Shown in pieces: positions 380 to 24,962 of a stretch of 35,891 nt of DNA. The notes under the pieces were generated by a model. It worked only from the letters and a program-made list of their open reading frames with translations. It made no database searches and was not told the origin of the DNA. The stretch is from a virus. The DNA lies in the IMG/VR virus record IMGVR_UViG_3300005841_000060, positions 1-35,891 of that record; one strand, 5' to 3'. The stretch's first letter is position 1; each line of letters begins with the position of its first letter. The translations under genes were made by a program, and so were the position numbers.

Positions 380-519
380 AGCCCTTTTATCTCCAGGGTA
401 CGGACGGCCCAATGACACCGGAGACGATTACGGCGCTCAAGGCCGTGGCCTGGGTAGACTGTTTCCTGATCCTGGCCATCGTTTTTATTTTCGTTTTCAA
501 GAGGGAGCTTTTTAAATGA
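367..519 (+). CDS. 50-residue single-pass membrane peptide
   Basis: A short frame starts at ATG 367, 13 bases before the upstream stop, and ends TGA 517-519, overlapping the ATG of the helicase gene at 516. After a polar N-terminus of about 25 residues there is one hydrophobic segment, about residues 27-45 (VAWVDCFLILAIVFIFVF), then KRELFK, giving a likely N-out/C-in single-pass peptide. The overlaps on both sides and the membrane segment argue that it is real. Its role is unknown; holin-like or superinfection-related membrane peptides are possible. Confidence 0.6.
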   Translation: METVKPFYLQGTDGPMTPETITALKAVAWVDCFLILAIVFIFVFKRELFK

Positions 520-2168
520 ATCAGATTTACTTGGATCAAGACCAAATGATTTTCAAGTTTCGCTACGATCCGCAAATCGTAGAGGATATAAAAATCTCGA
601 TCCGTGGGCGAAGGTGGGATCCGGCTTTGAAAGTTTGGACGGCGCCGGCCGCAAAGGTCGACGACAAAATCCTTGAGCGTTTCCGGAAAGCCTATGGGTT
701 CATGGTGGATAAGAAAATCGGGCTCCCACCCGCTGTCCTGCCCAAAGTACCTCCGCAAATTAAAACCGATTATAAGCTACCGCCCGGAGTGGTGAAGGGG
801 ACTCTACGCGAATACCAGCTCGCCGGAGTCGAGTACGCCCTCAACCATCCCAAGTGCTTGATCGCTGACGAAATGGGAACGGGAAAGACCCTGCAAAGTC
901 TCGCGGCCGTAACCGCCTCCGATTCTTTTCCGGCCCTGGTGATCTGTCCGGCGAGCCTCAAATACAACTGGCAACGAGAAATAAATAAATGGATCGAAGG
1001 AAAATCGGTTCGGATTCTTTCGTCGGGTGACTCAATATGGGAGCTGGTTCCGTTTGATTTTCACGTCGTGAACTACGACATCCTGGGAAAAATAAACTTT
1101 GCGAACATTCAATTTAAATCGGTGATCTGTGACGAAAGCCATTATTTGAAATCAGCTTCCACCCTCCGAAGTGACAACGTTCAAAAGATTTTGAAGGGGG
1201 TCGAGCGGGCGATTTTCCTTTCGGGAACTCCGATCCTGAATCGTCCTTCGGAGCTGGTGAACCAATTAAAACTTCTCGGAGTGCTGGACAAGTTCGGCGG
1301 CTACTGGAAGTTCGTTCGGAGGTATTGCCGGGCCTACCATTCGAACTACGGGATCAACACGGACGGGGCCGCAAACCTGGACGAGCTATCCATCCGTCTC
1401 AAAACCATCGTAATGATCCGAAGAGAAAAATCCGAAGTGGTGAAAGAACTCCCCGAGAAAATCCGAAGCGACATCGAAGTCGAGATCGACAATATGAGGG
1501 AGTATAAATCGGCAGAGGACGACATTGTCGAGTTCATCCGAAGAGAGAAAGGCGACGCCGCCAGCGCCCGGGCCGCGGCCGCTGAAACACTTGTCCGGAT
1601 TGAAAAACTCAAACAGCTTTCGACAAAGGGAAAGATGAAAGCGGCCGTGACCTGGCTCGAAGATTTTATCGAGACTGGGAAAAAGATCGTGGTCTTCGTG
1701 ACGCATACCGACGCCGCCCGGGAGCTTGCGGCCAAGTTCAACTGGCCGAAAATCATCGGAGAGACGCCGGCCGAAGAAAGACAACGCGCCGTCGATCGCT
1801 TCCAGGATGATCCGGATTTAAAAGGGATCGTTCTCAATATCAAGGCCGGAGGCGTGGGGCTAACCCTTACGGCCGCAAGTGACACGCTCTTCCTCGAGCT
1901 GGGATGGAGCGCCGGAGAAATGGATCAAGCGGAGGATCGAACGCACCGCATCGGTCAAATTAACAGTGTGACGTGCCATTATTTTTTAGGGAAAGGAACC
2001 ATCGACGAAACGATCTACGCCTTGATTGAAAGCAAGCGTGGGGTTTATCGTGAGGCGATGGGAGAGAAAATCACGGTCAAGACTTCGAAAAGTATCTTTT
2101 CGGACTTGGTTCGTGGAATGGGGGGAAAGGATGATTTTGACGGACTGGACGAAGTCGATTACAATTAA
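516..2168 (+). CDS. SNF2-family DNA helicase/translocase with HARP-like N-terminus
   Basis: A 550-residue superfamily 2 ATPase. Residues 1-65 (WDPALKVWTAP and flanks) resemble the HARP domain of SMARCAL1-type annealing helicases. The helicase core follows: Walker A DEMGTGKT at 118-125, Walker B DESH at 206-209, motif III FLSGTPI near 234-240, and motif VI EDRTHRIGQ near 477-485 with the arginine fingers. SNF2 proteins translocate on double-stranded DNA without classical strand unwinding. Phage members are linked to replication, recombination or fork remodelling. The gene ends shortly before a strong terminator, so it closes its transcription unit. The family is certain; the exact role in infection is inferred. 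Confidence 0.93.
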   Translation: MNQIYLDQDQMIFKFRYDPQIVEDIKISIRGRRWDPALKVWTAPAAKVDDKILERFRKAYGFMVDKKIGLPPAVLPKVPPQIKTDYKLPPGVVKGTLREYQLAGVEYALNHPKCLIADEMGTGKTLQSLAAVTASDSFPALVICPASLKYNWQREINKWIEGKSVRILSSGDSIWELVPFDFHVVNYDILGKINFANIQFKSVICDESHYLKSASTLRSDNVQKILKGVERAIFLSGTPILNRPSELVNQLKLLGVLDKFGGYWKFVRRYCRAYHSNYGINTDGAANLDELSIRLKTIVMIRREKSEVVKELPEKIRSDIEVEIDNMREYKSAEDDIVEFIRREKGDAASARAAAAETLVRIEKLKQLSTKGKMKAAVTWLEDFIETGKKIVVFVTHTDAARELAAKFNWPKIIGETPAEERQRAVDRFQDDPDLKGIVLNIKAGGVGLTLTAASDTLFLELGWSAGEMDQAEDRTHRIGQINSVTCHYFLGKGTIDETIYALIESKRGVYREAMGEKITVKTSKSIFSDLVRGMGGKDDFDGLDEVDYN

Positions 2169-6533: not shown

Positions 6534-6564
6534 TCCCCGAACGAGAGAGAGTTCGAGAGTACAG

Positions 6565-6594
6565 AAAGGGGCGCATGAGCGCCCTTTTTTGTTT
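6565..6594 (+). terminator. Rho-independent terminator closing the replication block
   Basis: Stem GGGCGC (6569-6574) and GCGCCC (6579-6584) with an ATGA tetraloop, extended by A/T pairs, is followed by TTTTTTGTTTT. It is an intrinsic terminator 32 bases after the secreted-protein gene and just ahead of the promoter of the 7-deazaguanine operon. Confidence 0.9.
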
Positions 6595-6603
6595 TATGGG
6601 ATA

Positions 6604-6632
6604 TTGAAGTTTCCACAGAAATCTTGTAAAAT
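6604..6632 (+). promoter_or_regulatory. Promoter of the 7-deazaguanine modification operon
   Basis: -35 TTGAAG (6604-6609), a 17-bp spacer and -10 TAAAAT (6627-6632), placed between a terminator and queD. The -10 context GTAAAATAAAGG is shared with the promoter at 4062-4089. AAAGGAAA (6633-6640) precedes the ATG at 6647, so a transcript starting about 7 bases after the -10 would have a very short leader. Confidence 0.75.
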
Positions 6633-6646
6633 AAAGGAAATCAAAA

Positions 6647-7081
6647 ATGCTTTCTTGTACGAAAAAATACTCCGACATTCCCTTTGCCCACCGACAGCCG
6701 AAGCATGACGGCCATTGTCGTTTGATCCACGGGCACAACTGGGCGTTTGAGTTTGAGTTCACGGCCGAAGTGACGGACGAAAATGGTTTCGTCGCTGACT
6801 TCGGAAAACTTAAAGACCTGAAAGAGTGGGTGAACCGTTTCGATCACGCGCTTGCCCTGAATGAAAACGACCCGCTCGTCGACTTTCTTCAAAAATTAGA
6901 TAGGCCCATCGGTGTGATTGCGAAAATCATTACTGTTCCGGATGCCTCTTGCGAGGGGCTCGCCCAGCTTGCTTACGCCGTCGCCTCCGGAATTGTCGAG
7001 AGTGTGACTCAGAAGCGGGCGAAAGTTTCCAGGGTGACGATTTACGAAGACTCCAAGAACTCGGCAACTTATATTCCATGA
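6647..7081 (+). CDS. queD: 6-carboxy-5,6,7,8-tetrahydropterin synthase
   Basis: A 144-residue member of the PTPS/QueD family. It converts 7,8-dihydroneopterin triphosphate to 6-carboxytetrahydropterin in preQ0 synthesis. Zinc ligands H15, H28 and H30 (FAHRQ, LIHGHNW) are present. The catalytic Cys is C24, with the D66-H67 pair (RFDHALAL) and E134 (YEDSKNSATY). Length is normal for phage and bacterial QueD. It is the first gene after its own promoter and overlaps queE as ATGA. The order queD-queE-folE-queC is a complete preQ0 pathway. Confidence 0.95.
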   Translation: MLSCTKKYSDIPFAHRQPKHDGHCRLIHGHNWAFEFEFTAEVTDENGFVADFGKLKDLKEWVNRFDHALALNENDPLVDFLQKLDRPIGVIAKIITVPDASCEGLAQLAYAVASGIVESVTQKRAKVSRVTIYEDSKNSATYIP

Positions 7082-7782
7082 CGCCAACCTATCCGATTTA
7101 CGAACATTTCAAATCCTTTCAGGGTGAAGGCGTCTATATGGGCCAGCCTTCTTTTTTTATTCGGACGATGGGCTGTCCGGTCGGGTGCGAGTGGTGCGAC
7201 TCGGCCGGAACCTGGAAACCGGAACACGCTCCAAAAGATTTACAGCGCATGACGACCGCGGAGCTTGTGAGCCTGATCGAGCAAAGCGAATGTCGCCGGG
7301 TGATCGTGACGGGCGGGGAGCCGGCCATCCATGACTGGCGTCCTCTCCTTGAGGCTTCCCGGGCCGCGCTTCCCAGTGTTCTTTTCCACATGGAGACATC
7401 CGGAGCTTTCCAGATCAAGGGGGAGTTCGACTGGATCACCCTTTCGCCGAAATGGAAAAAGACTCCGATCGTCGAGACTTGGAATCAGGCAAGCGAAATA
7501 AAAATCATCGTGGACAAAGTCGGGGCCGTGAAAGAGTGGCTAGATTTTATTGCCGACAATTTCGCTCTACCGATCCATTCCAATCATCCCGATCTTCCGA
7601 TATGGCTTCACCCTGAATGGACTCAGCGGGCCAACTGGGAAATCCTGGAAGAGATCGTCACGGCGATCAAGACATCCGATCAAAACATTTACGATCTCCG
7701 GGCCGGCTACCAGCTTCACAAACTTTTCCAGGCCGACAATCTCGACCCGAACGCTCGTCCCGTGGTGCCGGTGTATGGCTGA
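7078..7782 (+). CDS. queE: 7-carboxy-7-deazaguanine synthase (radical SAM)
   Basis: A 234-residue radical SAM enzyme. ATG 7078 overlaps the queD stop by 4 bases and is preferred to an upstream ATG at 6949. The cluster-binding motif CPVGCEWC (C33, C37, C40; CX3CX2C) and the SAM-binding VTGGEPAIHDW are intact. The N-terminal YEHFKSFQGEGVYMGQPSFFIR is the usual QueE substrate segment. It contracts 6-carboxytetrahydropterin to 7-carboxy-7-deazaguanine. It overlaps the next gene by 8 bases, indicating translational coupling. Confidence 0.95.
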   Translation: MTPTYPIYEHFKSFQGEGVYMGQPSFFIRTMGCPVGCEWCDSAGTWKPEHAPKDLQRMTTAELVSLIEQSECRRVIVTGGEPAIHDWRPLLEASRAALPSVLFHMETSGAFQIKGEFDWITLSPKWKKTPIVETWNQASEIKIIVDKVGAVKEWLDFIADNFALPIHSNHPDLPIWLHPEWTQRANWEILEEIVTAIKTSDQNIYDLRAGYQLHKLFQADNLDPNARPVVPVYG

Positions 7783-8626
7783 AAAGATTTTCCTTTCCTG
7801 GGAAGAGGTTCGGACTCTCATCAAGCGCCGGATACCCCAAGGGCTTCGCGTCCATGGTGTTCCGCGTGGCGGGGCGATCGTAGCGGAGATTTACGGCGGG
7901 AACGTTCCGGTGCATGAGGCGCAAGCCCTGGTCGACGATCTTGTGGACTCGGGAGTAACCCGCGACCGATGGTCTAAAAAATATCCAAATAAGCCCATGC
8001 ACGTTCTGATTGATAAACAAGAGGACGAGGCCTTCAAAAACAAGTGGGTCGTCTTCCCCTGGGAAGTAACCGAAGAGGGTGACAAATCCATTTCGGAAAA
8101 CGTCGTTAGGGTGCTTGAATACTTGGGAGAGGATGCGGGCCGGGAAGGTCTTCAAGAGACACCGGCCCGCTATATAAAGTTTTTGGAAGAGTTCACTTCG
8201 CCGGAAGATTTCAAAATGACAACCTTCGACGGAGAGAGTTACGACGAAATGGTCGTTCAGTCCGGCATCCCGTTCTTTTCCCTTTGCGAACACCACATGG
8301 TTCCGTTCTTCGGGACGGCCGCTGTCGCCTACATCCCAGGGAAAAAGATTGTCGGGCTTTCCAAACTGGCGCGGACGGTGGAATGGTTCTCGCGCCGCCT
8401 CCAGAATCAGGAGCGCATCACCCAACAGATCGCCCATAAAATCCAAGAGACGCTTTCGCCCCTGGGTGTGGCCGTGGTGATCCGGGCTCGGCACCTCTGC
8501 ATGGAAATGAGAGGCGTCAAGAAACACGACACCTGGACAACGACTTCAAAACTGATGGGCCGATTCAAAGAGAGCGCCGAGGCCCGGGCCGAGTTCTTCA
8601 AAATCATAGAAGGGGATATGCGATGA
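7775..8626 (+). CDS. folE: Phosphoribosyltransferase-GTP cyclohydrolase I fusion
   Basis: A 283-residue two-domain protein starting at ATG 7775. Residues 107-283 are GTP cyclohydrolase I, making 7,8-dihydroneopterin triphosphate from GTP, the first step to preQ0. Zinc ligands C171, H174 and C242 (SLCEHHMVPFFG, RHLCMEMRGV) are intact. Residues 1-100 are a type I phosphoribosyltransferase-like domain: VPRGG (29-33), the PRPP loop LVDDLVDSGVT (52-62) and VVFPWE (92-97). Ordinary FolE lacks this domain. It may feed purine nucleotide to FolE, possibly by salvaging the guanine that DpdA releases from DNA. That role is inference; a structural or regulatory use is the alternative. Confidence 0.93.
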   Translation: MAEKIFLSWEEVRTLIKRRIPQGLRVHGVPRGGAIVAEIYGGNVPVHEAQALVDDLVDSGVTRDRWSKKYPNKPMHVLIDKQEDEAFKNKWVVFPWEVTEEGDKSISENVVRVLEYLGEDAGREGLQETPARYIKFLEEFTSPEDFKMTTFDGESYDEMVVQSGIPFFSLCEHHMVPFFGTAAVAYIPGKKIVGLSKLARTVEWFSRRLQNQERITQQIAHKIQETLSPLGVAVVIRARHLCMEMRGVKKHDTWTTTSKLMGRFKESAEARAEFFKIIEGDMR

Positions 8627-9267
8627 GCGCTTTAATTATTCTTTCGGGTGGAATGGATTCGGTGACGTGCCTGCACCATCACAAGCAAGCGGGGATCACC
8701 CACGCCCTCAATTTCGACTACGGCTCGAAGCACAACGCCATGGAGCAAGAAAAGGCCCGGGTGAACTGCGACAAGCTGGGGATCGACTTCAAAATCATTT
8801 CACTGGATTTCATCGGTAAGTATTTCAAATCCGATCTCCTGAAAAGCGGCGACGATGTTCCGGAAGGACACTACGCCGAAGAAAGCATGAAGCGCACCGT
8901 CGTCCCTTTCCGAAACGCCATCATGCTTTCGATCGCCACCGGCTACGCCGAGAGCTTGAAACTCGATCGGGTCTACATTGCCAACCACGCTGGCGACCAC
9001 ACGATCTATCCGGACTGCCGGCTGGACTTCGTGAAGGCGTTCGGCGATTCGATGAAGCTCGGAACCTGGGCAGGGGTGAGCTTGATCGCCCCGTATACCC
9101 TTTTGACCAAGCGGCAGATCGCCGAGATCGGAAAACAAATCGGAGTGGACTACGCCGAGACTTACACCTGCTACCGGGGCGGCTTGAAGCACTGCGGGAA
9201 GTGCGGATCCTGTACGGAGAGGAAAGAGGCACTTTTCGGATTCGATCCCACCCAATACGAAGCCTGA
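8623..9267 (+). CDS. queC: 7-cyano-7-deazaguanine (preQ0) synthase
   Basis: A 214-residue PP-loop ATPase joined to the upstream gene by ATGA overlap. The PP-loop SGGMDS (8-13) binds ATP. Four zinc cysteines lie at C183, C191, C194 and C197 (TCYRGGLKHCGKCGSC). It turns 7-carboxy-7-deazaguanine into preQ0 with ammonia and ATP. It is plain QueC, with no fused glutamine amidotransferase-like (Gat-QueC) part. This speaks for preQ0 itself, not an amidino derivative, as the end product of the phage pathway. Confidence 0.95.
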   Translation: MSALIILSGGMDSVTCLHHHKQAGITHALNFDYGSKHNAMEQEKARVNCDKLGIDFKIISLDFIGKYFKSDLLKSGDDVPEGHYAEESMKRTVVPFRNAIMLSIATGYAESLKLDRVYIANHAGDHTIYPDCRLDFVKAFGDSMKLGTWAGVSLIAPYTLLTKRQIAEIGKQIGVDYAETYTCYRGGLKHCGKCGSCTERKEALFGFDPTQYEA

Positions 9268-9284
9268 ACGGATGGGCTTGCGGA

Positions 9285-10046
9285 GTGAAACTTTATTTTG
9301 CCGGCCTTACCCTCCCAACCTGGGAACGAAATAAAAGGCTTTCGCCGAGTATTCTTTTAAGCTATGTCGAAAAAAACAAAATCCTCCGGTTCTTCGAAAA
9401 GACCAAAGAGAAAATCTTTCTCGACTCCGGAGCGTTCACCGCGTTTAACTCGGGCAAGGAAATCAATATCGACGAGTACGCCGATTTCATTAAGAAGCAC
9501 CGAGCCCGCCTCGATGTCGCCGCGACGCTTGACTCAATCGGAGATTACCAAAAAACTGCTGAGAATACTTCGTCCCTTGAAAAAAAAGGATGCGAGGTTC
9601 TTCCAGTCTTTCATTTCGGCTCTCCGCTATCTGAACTCGAAAGGCTTGTTAGAAAATACGATTACATCGCTCTCGGAGGACTCGTCCCGCTTGCGCTCCG
9701 CGTTAAGCGCCTTCGAGGTTGGCTCGATCTCTGTTTTTCAAAGATCGGAGGAAAAGTCCGAGTCCACGGGTTCGGGATCAATGCCTTCTGGGCGTGGCGC
9801 CGATACCCCTTCTACTCCGTGGACGCCACGTCCTGGGTACAGTGGGGGGCTTTCAAACGCGCCGTTGTCTTCGAGGGACTTCTCAGGGGCTTCCGCATCG
9901 TGAGTAAAGCCGACCGAGAACTCAAGTCCATGATCTGTTACGACGACTCCGGGGAATCGCTGGAGGATTTCAATATCGCCTCCTACCACAAAGCGGCCGG
10001 CGCAATCACTGAACTGTGGGAAAAAAAGGGGATCAAATGGCCGTAG
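9285..10046 (+). CDS. dpdA: DpdA-type DNA guanine transglycosylase
   Basis: A 253-residue protein with a TIM-barrel pattern of the tRNA-guanine transglycosylase superfamily, phage DpdA branch. FLDSGAF (45-51; candidate catalytic D47), PVFH (107-110), YIALGG (127-132), HGFG (161-164) and YSVDATSW (177-184; candidate nucleophile D180) fall in the expected order. It should swap guanine in DNA for preQ0. GTG 9285 is chosen because homology begins at KLYFAGLT and upstream codons (from 9201) overlap queC; the start is not certain. It lies directly after queC and overlaps the ParB-like gene by 10 bases. Confidence 0.88.
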   Translation: MKLYFAGLTLPTWERNKRLSPSILLSYVEKNKILRFFEKTKEKIFLDSGAFTAFNSGKEINIDEYADFIKKHRARLDVAATLDSIGDYQKTAENTSSLEKKGCEVLPVFHFGSPLSELERLVRKYDYIALGGLVPLALRVKRLRGWLDLCFSKIGGKVRVHGFGINAFWAWRRYPFYSVDATSWVQWGAFKRAVVFEGLLRGFRIVSKADRELKSMICYDDSGESLEDFNIASYHKAAGAITELWEKKGIKWP

Positions 10047-10753
10047 TCTTCGACCCGAAAAAACTCAAAGTCGTCCCGATCGGGGAAGTCCTTCCCAACC
10101 CCTGGAACCCGAAGCCAGGCGCCCGGAAGTCCAAAGAGTTCCAAGAGGTCAAGAAATCCATCAAGGACAAGGGCCTTCGCCTTCCGATCATCGTTCGGGA
10201 AAAAGGAAATGGCTACGAGATCGTGGACGGGGAACAGCGCTTCACCGCGGCCCAGGACTTGGGATTCAAAGAGGTCGTCGTCTACAACGAGGGAAAGCTC
10301 TCCGATCAGCAAGCGAAAGAACTCACGATCGCTTTCCAGACTCAGGTGCCGTTTTCCGAGTACGACCTCGGTCGCTTGGTCAAAGAACTGTCCACGAAGT
10401 ACGAGCACTACCAGCTTCCATATTCCAAAGAAAAGGTTGCGGAGCTGGTGGGACTGGTGGACTTCTCCTGGAACGAATACGTCACAAACTTCCTCGAGAT
10501 CGACGACAAGAACGCCAAGGCCCACGAAACCGTCTTCCGCGCCACCAAAGAGGAAATCGAAAAGATCAGGGACACAATCGGGATCAAGGCTGAGAAAAAG
10601 GGGGAGATCGTGAAGATCAACCGCATCCTCCGATTCCGGCTGGAGCGAACTACTCAGGAGCGCTTGGAAAAGGTTCTCAAAGGAATTATGCTTAAAAAGG
10701 GTACGAGAGATCCGAATGCGGCTTTCCTCGCCCTGCTGGACGGTGTGAAATGA
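10037..10753 (+). CDS. ParB/sulfiredoxin-fold protein, DpdB-like partner
   Basis: A 238-residue protein. ATG 10037 follows AAAGGGGATCAA. Residues 10-90 carry the ParB N-terminal nuclease/CTPase-like fold: VLPNPWNPKPGAR, LPIIVREK and the signature VDGEQRFTAAQDLG (63-76). The rest is helical. In the bacterial dpd cluster a ParB-like ATPase (DpdB) is needed with DpdA for base insertion. Close coupling to dpdA here suggests the same job, such as opening or selecting DNA for base exchange. A plasmid-type partition role is unlikely, since no ParA gene is present. Confidence 0.82.
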   Translation: MAVVFDPKKLKVVPIGEVLPNPWNPKPGARKSKEFQEVKKSIKDKGLRLPIIVREKGNGYEIVDGEQRFTAAQDLGFKEVVVYNEGKLSDQQAKELTIAFQTQVPFSEYDLGRLVKELSTKYEHYQLPYSKEKVAELVGLVDFSWNEYVTNFLEIDDKNAKAHETVFRATKEEIEKIRDTIGIKAEKKGEIVKINRILRFRLERTTQERLEKVLKGIMLKKGTRDPNAAFLALLDGVK

Positions 10754-11004
10754 AAACTCGAAGACTTGGAAAAATTATTATCTCCGACGCCTTCTGGAGA
10801 GATGGCTATCAAGACCTGGCCTACGTCACCAAGGGGTGTGCGATTCTCCGGGCCGAACACCGGCTCGACCTGGGCGCAATCGAGTACATCGCCTACCATC
10901 CGGACTTCGACGAAATCACGATAGGGGAGATCGTTCCGGAGTACGTCGCTCAGTTCACGGCCCAGGAATCGGGGAACCCGACGATCAAATGGATTCGGCA
11001 ATGA
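10750..11004 (+). CDS. Small protein at the end of the modification operon
   Basis: An 84-residue protein coupled to the ParB-like gene by ATGA. It shows two short beta blocks (GKIIISDAFWRDG, IEYIAYHPDFDEI) and acidic patches. I do not recognise the family. Its coupling places it with the modification genes, and it might be a DpdA/DpdB accessory factor. It could equally be the first gene of the packaging module, since it overlaps the next gene too. Confidence 0.7.
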   Translation: MKTRRLGKIIISDAFWRDGYQDLAYVTKGCAILRAEHRLDLGAIEYIAYHPDFDEITIGEIVPEYVAQFTAQESGNPTIKWIRQ

Positions 11005-24539: not shown

Positions 24540-24962
24540 ATGCAAAACAACGATCAAGCCGAGAAACAGATACTTATCGTCGAGGGTGAAATCCTCGAGG
24601 GGCTTACGAACCTGAACGAACTCACCTCGGAAGAGGGGACGGTCGAGGTTCCGGAGTTTGGAAAAAAAAGAATCATTTCGAACGGGGTGAAAACCATTCC
24701 CCCGATCGAAGGAACGGTCAAGGTTCGCCGAAACTCCAAGACGATGAAACTTCTCGCTGACTGGTACAACCTGGATCAGACGAAAGACTGCATCGTCGTC
24801 ACCACGGACGCCGACGGCCAAGAAATCAAACGAAACCTTTACCCGGACTGCGAATGCGTCATGGCGACCAAGAGCGGAGCCTACGACGCCGCCAATCCCA
24901 CCTTCGCGCAAGAAAAGTTTCGCTTACTCCCCTGGGACGTAATCGAAATACCGGTTCAGTAA
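24540..24962 (+). CDS. Tail tube protein
   Basis: A 140-residue protein directly after the sheath gene, with AGGAG before ATG 24540. It has the beta-rich tube fold: EGTVEVPEFGKKRII, IEGTVKVRRNSKTMKLLADWYN, RNLYPDCECVMATKS and a final FRLLPWDVIEIPVQ. Stacked hexamers form the inner tube. The sheath-tube-chaperone-tape measure order supports the call. Confidence 0.85.
   Translation: MQNNDQAEKQILIVEGEILEGLTNLNELTSEEGTVEVPEFGKKRIISNGVKTIPPIEGTVKVRRNSKTMKLLADWYNLDQTKDCIVVTTDADGQEIKRNLYPDCECVMATKSGAYDAANPTFAQEKFRLLPWDVIEIPVQ

Follow-up and report, generated by a model that had tools for sequence, protein, structure and literature searches.

The closest described relatives of the locus presented here are the pathways of Escherichia phage CAjan and Mycobacterium phage Rosebush, in which FolE, QueD, QueE, QueC and DpdA were experimentally established to give the modified base dPreQ0 (PMC6884629). 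Both phages have a QueC without an amidotransferase (GATase) domain and no further amidotransferase or reductase. In phages where dPreQ0 was measured, there are about 7–10 modified bases per 100 nucleotides (PMC6884629). Bacterial Dpd systems (DpdA–DpdB–DpdC) place DpdA beside DpdB, described as a ParB-like ATPase for preQ0 insertion, and the family PF03883 is assigned to DpdC (PMC12839542). Here we analyzed the 35,891-bp virus record IMGVR_UViG_3300005841_000060 (the window). Judged from sequences and structure models, the gene string that begins at position 6647 very probably forms, taken as a whole, an operon for 7-deazaguanine hypermodification of the phage DNA with dPreQ0 as its product. 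The locus has the same enzymes and the same predicted base as CAjan and Rosebush, but differs from them by an N-terminal domain of the xanthine-guanine phosphoribosyltransferase (XGPRT) type on FolE, by a short and divergent DpdA and by a ParB-like gene that overlaps dpdA. Its features are the following (E-values in brackets).

6562..6591, + strand: intrinsic terminator of the upstream unit, a hairpin followed by U6
6604..6632, + strand: sigma-70-like promoter match, TTGAAG-17-TAAAAT, 9/12, at chance level
6647..7081, + strand: queD, 6-carboxytetrahydropterin synthase (PF01242, PTPS/QueD, 4.7e-24; phrog_2389, 5.4e-33)
7078..7782, + strand: queE, radical SAM 7-carboxy-7-deazaguanine synthase (phrog_2076, 1.5e-31)
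7775..8077, + strand: XGPRT/Gpt-type phosphoribosyltransferase (PRT) domain, residues 1–101 of the FolE fusion, by profile and AlphaFold model
8081..8626, + strand: GTP cyclohydrolase I (FolE) domain, residues 103–283 of the fusion (PF01227, 2.5e-65)
8623..9267, + strand: queC, 7-cyano-7-deazaguanine (preQ0) synthase without GATase domain (PF06508, 7.6e-58)
9285..10046, + strand: dpdA, short (253 amino acids) DNA-guanine transglycosylase (phrog_887, 1.2e-45)
10037..10753, + strand: ParB-like gene adjoining dpdA (PF02195, ParB_N, 1.3e-13)
10750..11004, + strand: small overlapping open reading frame (ORF) with no match in Pfam, PHROGs, PADLOC or NCBIfam

An initial annotation of this DNA had described the key residues of the four preQ0 synthesis enzymes as intact, and this was found to be so. 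As read directly from the translations, QueD keeps the metal-binding and catalytic residues of the motif FAHR..CRLIHGH..FDH, and QueE keeps its CxxxCxxC and GGEP motifs; the QueE match to TIGR04322 (4.6e-26) lies under the cut-off of that model. QueC has the PP-loop SGGMDS and a four-Cys zinc site and scores over the TIGR00364 cut-off. The FolE zinc and catalytic residues C171, H173, H174, H240 and C242 are invariant in 29 relatives, and the model of the FolE domain matches the GCH1 structure with a Z score of 23.0. By sequence, the enzyme set of the phage dPreQ0-type pathway, FolE, QueD, QueE and QueC, is present with all key residues in place.

Pfam alone misses both DpdA and the PRT domain, and PHROGs, profiles and structure were used for their recognition. 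The 253 amino acid DpdA product has no Pfam match. Its AlphaFold2 model (pLDDT 91.7) superimposes on the archaeosine tRNA-guanine transglycosylase (TGT) 1iq8 with a Z score of 18.7 and a root mean square deviation (rmsd) of 3.5, with 244 of 253 residues aligned, and archaeosine and queuine TGTs are matched over residues 1–251. The structure search, which had been set as the test of the DpdA-like call, places the product inside the TGT superfamily, and in the model the TGT barrel fold covers the whole chain. The call is also borne out by PHROGs and by a profile of 43 relatives, for which the top PDB sequence is the bacterial DNA-guanine transglycosylase 7ui4, a weak match (E 0.0012) in which the GG and SxDS motifs line up. 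Residues D47, D83, H110, GG131-132, H161 and D180 are invariant in the 43 relatives; at the sequence level, the catalytic aspartates and the glycine pair of the superfamily are conserved. Against the bacterial DpdA equivalog NF041059 the product scores 19.4 bits, where the NCBIfam cut-off is 200. By sequence it is a divergent phage relative outside this equivalog, and it falls in a subfamily of short DpdAs that share the C-terminal motif LWxxxGxxW.

In the proposed pathway, FolE would open GTP, QueD and QueE would lead to 7-carboxy-7-deazaguanine and QueC would turn this into preQ0, which DpdA would exchange for guanine in the phage DNA after its synthesis. From the families present, the virion DNA of this uncultured phage would be expected to carry dPreQ0 and to resist restriction.

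It was already noticed in the initial annotation that FolE is part of a fusion (7775–8626), which we confirm, but the nature of its partner, an XGPRT-type domain, was left unnamed. A profile of the PRT domain built from 14 relatives matches XGPRT chains at 4.4e-10, and residues 3–101 of the AlphaFold model superimpose on E. coli XGPRT 4jls, which has a guanine analogue bound (Z 10.9, rmsd 2.7, 99 residues aligned). G32, G33, D54, D55, D58, G60, W91 and E97 are invariant in 29 fusions, and T62 and K81 are kept in 28 of them. The pyrophosphate (PPi) loop, the phosphoribosyl pyrophosphate (PRPP) loop, the general-base Asp and the purine-contact Lys and Trp are all kept, these roles being assigned from the E. 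coli enzyme. The fused domain has the fold and the ligand residues in common with E. coli and Yersinia XGPRT (Gpt) but contains only ~100 residues instead of ~150, has no flexible-loop region and is joined to FolE. Fused domains mostly have 20–31 residues from the PPi loop to the PRPP loop, compared with ~50 in most separate XGPRTs; in the present phage, 20 residues lie between RGG and DD. Sequence and model agree on a type I PRT fold with PPi and PRPP loops. Since the flexible catalytic loop region that characterizes the XGPRT family is missing, we speak of an XGPRT-type domain rather than of a full XGPRT. Related clusters also contain separate full-length PRTs, which are plain Gpt-family enzymes (4z1o, 1.5e-16); their match to the NCBIfam xanthine phosphoribosyltransferase model (8.3e-30) is under its cut-off, and the fused-domain and separate-PRT profiles align at 1.8e-19.

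A single-protein scan with the fusion returned the same phage only, and the wider scans were alignment-based. Of 84 sampled loci that have both DpdA and FolE, 46 contain the PRT domain (38 fused and 8 separate, often directly beside folE); this sample combines the best-scoring part of the scan with a selection of phage records, and as a few of its loci are near-duplicates, its fractions are not population frequencies. When the scan was seeded with the PRT domain, 79 of the 80 viral loci were FolE fusions, and DpdA was present in all 69 loci that are not interrupted by contig ends. In the other 11, the contig ends at most ~2.6 kb upstream, which is the frequent side of DpdA, or, in L115, right after FolE. 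Cellular genomes served as a control, and here 43 of 48 PRT matches had neither FolE nor DpdA in the locus, while the 5 fused ones were all in deazaguanine clusters. The same PRT-FolE fusion followed by DpdA occurs in Nipunavirus and related phages (JG054, NP1, VpKK5, Bhz54 and MMDA13), where the gene product carries the label GTP cyclohydrolase only. These phages differ from the present one in the gene order (QueE-QueC-QueD-FolE-DpdA), in a longer DpdA and in the DNA polymerase genes that come next, and the QueC gene of JG054 is much longer. A different N-terminal extension, of ~160 residues and without PRT motifs, is found on the FolE of Providencia phage PSTCR7 (L007:6734-7750).

What could such a domain do in a DNA modification locus? 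Every TGT-type exchange sets a guanine free, the domain belongs to the guanine/xanthine class, and DpdA is nearly always found where the fusion is; for these reasons we tentatively suggest, at somewhat less than even probability, that the PRT domain recycles the guanine displaced by DpdA to GMP. The freed guanine would react with PRPP to give GMP and so be led back towards GTP, on which the FolE half of the fusion acts. This suggestion is based on the PRT family, on the conserved residues and on the near-exclusive company of DpdA. It is possible, and still more tentative, that a dedicated guanine-recycling arm, XGPRT-type and mostly fused to FolE, regenerates the GTP precursor in the DpdA-dependent modification of many phages.

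Several observations weigh against guanine recycling. By its sequence, the fused domain without the flexible-loop region might bind its ligands without turnover. Phages 9g, CAjan and Rosebush, in which 7-deazaguanines were measured, are absent among the PRT matches, so modification can do without the domain. Genes of the XGPRT type are also found in one Campylobacter phage and one Brevundimonas phage in which QueC was found and DpdA was not detected, although this search was weak: the DpdA profile used (A1) missed an annotated DpdA of a Flavobacterium phage, and negatives elsewhere are not taken as proof. Because of the missing loop, the modified phages without the domain and the XGPRT-type genes without detected DpdA, a sensor or another salvage role has to be considered. 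The chief rival is a sensor role: with its catalysis reduced, the PRT domain would bind PRPP, guanine or GMP and adjust FolE activity allosterically, letting GTP flow to preQ0 only at a sufficient purine supply. It would fit with the loss of the loop region while all ligand-binding residues stay invariant, and with the position of the domain, which is always N-terminal in the FolE chain. Yet the domain retains its general-base Asp and its purine Lys, and in several similar clusters the fused domain is substituted by full-length separate XGPRT genes, a finding that action in cis would leave unexplained. Such genes lie directly beside folE in L035, L038, L040 and L041 and in Brevundimonas and Flavobacterium phages, and this favours an enzyme over a mere cis-acting domain. 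We regard the sensor as rather unlikely and keep guanine recycling as the working explanation.

Another question is which base the pathway ends with, and this depends on the gene content of the whole genome. The IMG/VR contig 3300026088_000003 (51,090 bp) is identical to the window over all shared bases, and its two ends share 127 identical bp, which lie at window positions 24570–24696. This overlap makes a 50,963-bp circle or a circularly permuted molecule the probable form of the phage genome; the contig looks like the whole genome, and the gene content was therefore judged on it. In the window and in this contig, the search for QueF gave only FolE's own weak match, PF03883 gave no match and the model of GATase-type QueC covered only the QueC half. 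No preQ0-converting enzyme (QueF, GATase-QueC or DpdC-type) was thus found, ArcS and newer enzymes having had no dedicated model search. The absence of these genes, first noted for the window, therefore extends to the 51-kb contig. Since they were not found in the 50,963-bp genome, dPreQ0 is the base predicted from the sequence, as initially proposed and in agreement with the published rule (PMC6884629). It is unlikely that the host or an unrecognised phage enzyme instead produces a derivative (dADG, dG+ or dPreQ1) as the end base: the genome has several small ORFs without assignment, and Salmonella phage 7-11 had dADG while its genes predicted none or preQ0 (PMC6884629), but the searches of the 51-kb contig for the three converting enzymes speak against it.

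A further hypothesis for the PRT domain is that it acts on preQ0 or on another 7-deazaguanine base, giving a nucleotide that is reduced, phosphorylated and incorporated by a polymerase, as a second route beside DpdA. This would account for the XGPRT-type genes of QueC phages without detected DpdA; in one such phage the gene adjoins those for ribonucleotide reductase and deoxynucleoside monophosphate (dNMP) kinase. We consider this second route quite improbable, as DpdA, a user of the free base, is found in every complete fused locus of the PRT-seeded scan and a PRT that consumes preQ0 would compete with it, and as no reductase or dNMP kinase was found among those ORFs of the genome that were searched. 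Searches with the DNA polymerase families PF00476 and PF00136 were empty, but they also missed the annotated polymerase of JG054 and no absence is claimed. In Brevundimonas phage MaInes (L107:6635-8468), genes for dNMP kinase, FolE and xanthine phosphoribosyltransferase are consecutive and follow ribonucleotide reductase genes; QueC is found elsewhere in this phage, DpdA was not detected (profile A1, a weak negative), and the phage may use a nucleotide-level route. Finally, it is very improbable that the operon supplies queuosine for host or phage tRNA, or folate, instead of modifying DNA, for although FolE to QueC are common to queuosine synthesis and FolE to folate synthesis (PMC6884629), PHROGs, the profile match and synteny with phage clusters for DNA modification identify the transglycosylase as a DpdA.

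The ParB-like gene was found where it had been placed, overlapping dpdA; its likeness to DpdB had been missed. A ParB-like gene was present in the locus of 19 of 20 sampled short-subfamily DpdA genes, and DpdA and ParB were at most 300 bases apart in 35 of 94 loci of one sample and in 34 of 68 of another. The arrangement resembles the bacterial Dpd system, from which the present locus differs in that there is no match to PF03883 or to the DpdD model and in that the DpdB model NF041060 does not match the ParB-like protein up to E 10. The protein is DpdB-like only by its ParB fold class and its adjacency to DpdA, and not by sequence family. From its position and fold class, and by analogy with bacterial DpdB, it probably assists DpdA on the DNA.

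The six genes lie at the positions first assigned to them, closely packed on a single strand. They had been described as overlapping, which holds for four junctions (QueD/QueE, QueE/FolE, FolE/QueC and DpdA/ParB, by 4–10 nt) but not for QueC and DpdA, which are 17 nt apart. The terminator before the operon was confirmed, with a hairpin of -20.8 kcal/mol (z -6.3) that none of 200 shuffles equalled in stability. The promoter proposed between it and queD did not stand, as the 9/12 match is no better than in shuffled sequence (2 promoter-type matches observed, against a mean of 2.8). Nor does the operon end at 11004, where no boundary was found: the gene string continues with overlaps through small ORFs to the terminase genes. 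With a promoter match at chance level and no boundary at 11004, a single transcription unit is only plausible.

Elsewhere, the genome encodes the sheath, baseplate wedge, portal and terminase small subunit of a contractile-tailed phage, as well as an O-like replication protein and an SNF2-type helicase. The helicase (window 516–2168) also scores against the bacterial DpdE and ZorD models, and it is probably a common phage helicase (phrog_62) and not a Dpd part. Outside the window, an ORF of the same genome (L028:3042-3632) begins like DnaJ and carries the N-terminal anti-restriction domain of ArdC (PF08401, 4.3e-16), and by this similarity it is possibly a second anti-restriction measure. Among the other loci, L049, L068 and L117 have two DpdA-like genes per cluster. 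PRT-FolE/DpdA clusters were also seen in metagenome-assembled genomes labelled Anaerolinea, Thermoplasmata archaeon and Zixibacteria (L190–L193), which are perhaps viral contigs binned with their hosts, or proviruses.

The minimal gene set and its dPreQ0 product are already published (PMC6884629), and with its PRT-FolE fusion, short DpdA and coupled ParB-like gene the present locus is a variant of this known pathway. The words phosphoribosyl, fusion and ParB are absent from the text of that study, from 2019, and the PRT-FolE fusion was not described in the literature searched, a scope outside which several central papers on phage 7-deazaguanines and Dpd lie. The operon is a further case of a known anti-restriction strategy, now with a seemingly whole genome available, and since a ParB-like neighbour recurs, a DpdB-type role in phages can be tested. 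If the PRT domain is active, the fate of the displaced guanine would be answered and the exchange of bases in DNA would be tied to purine salvage, and the PRT-FolE fusion could then serve as a sequence marker of DpdA-type modification in metagenomes.

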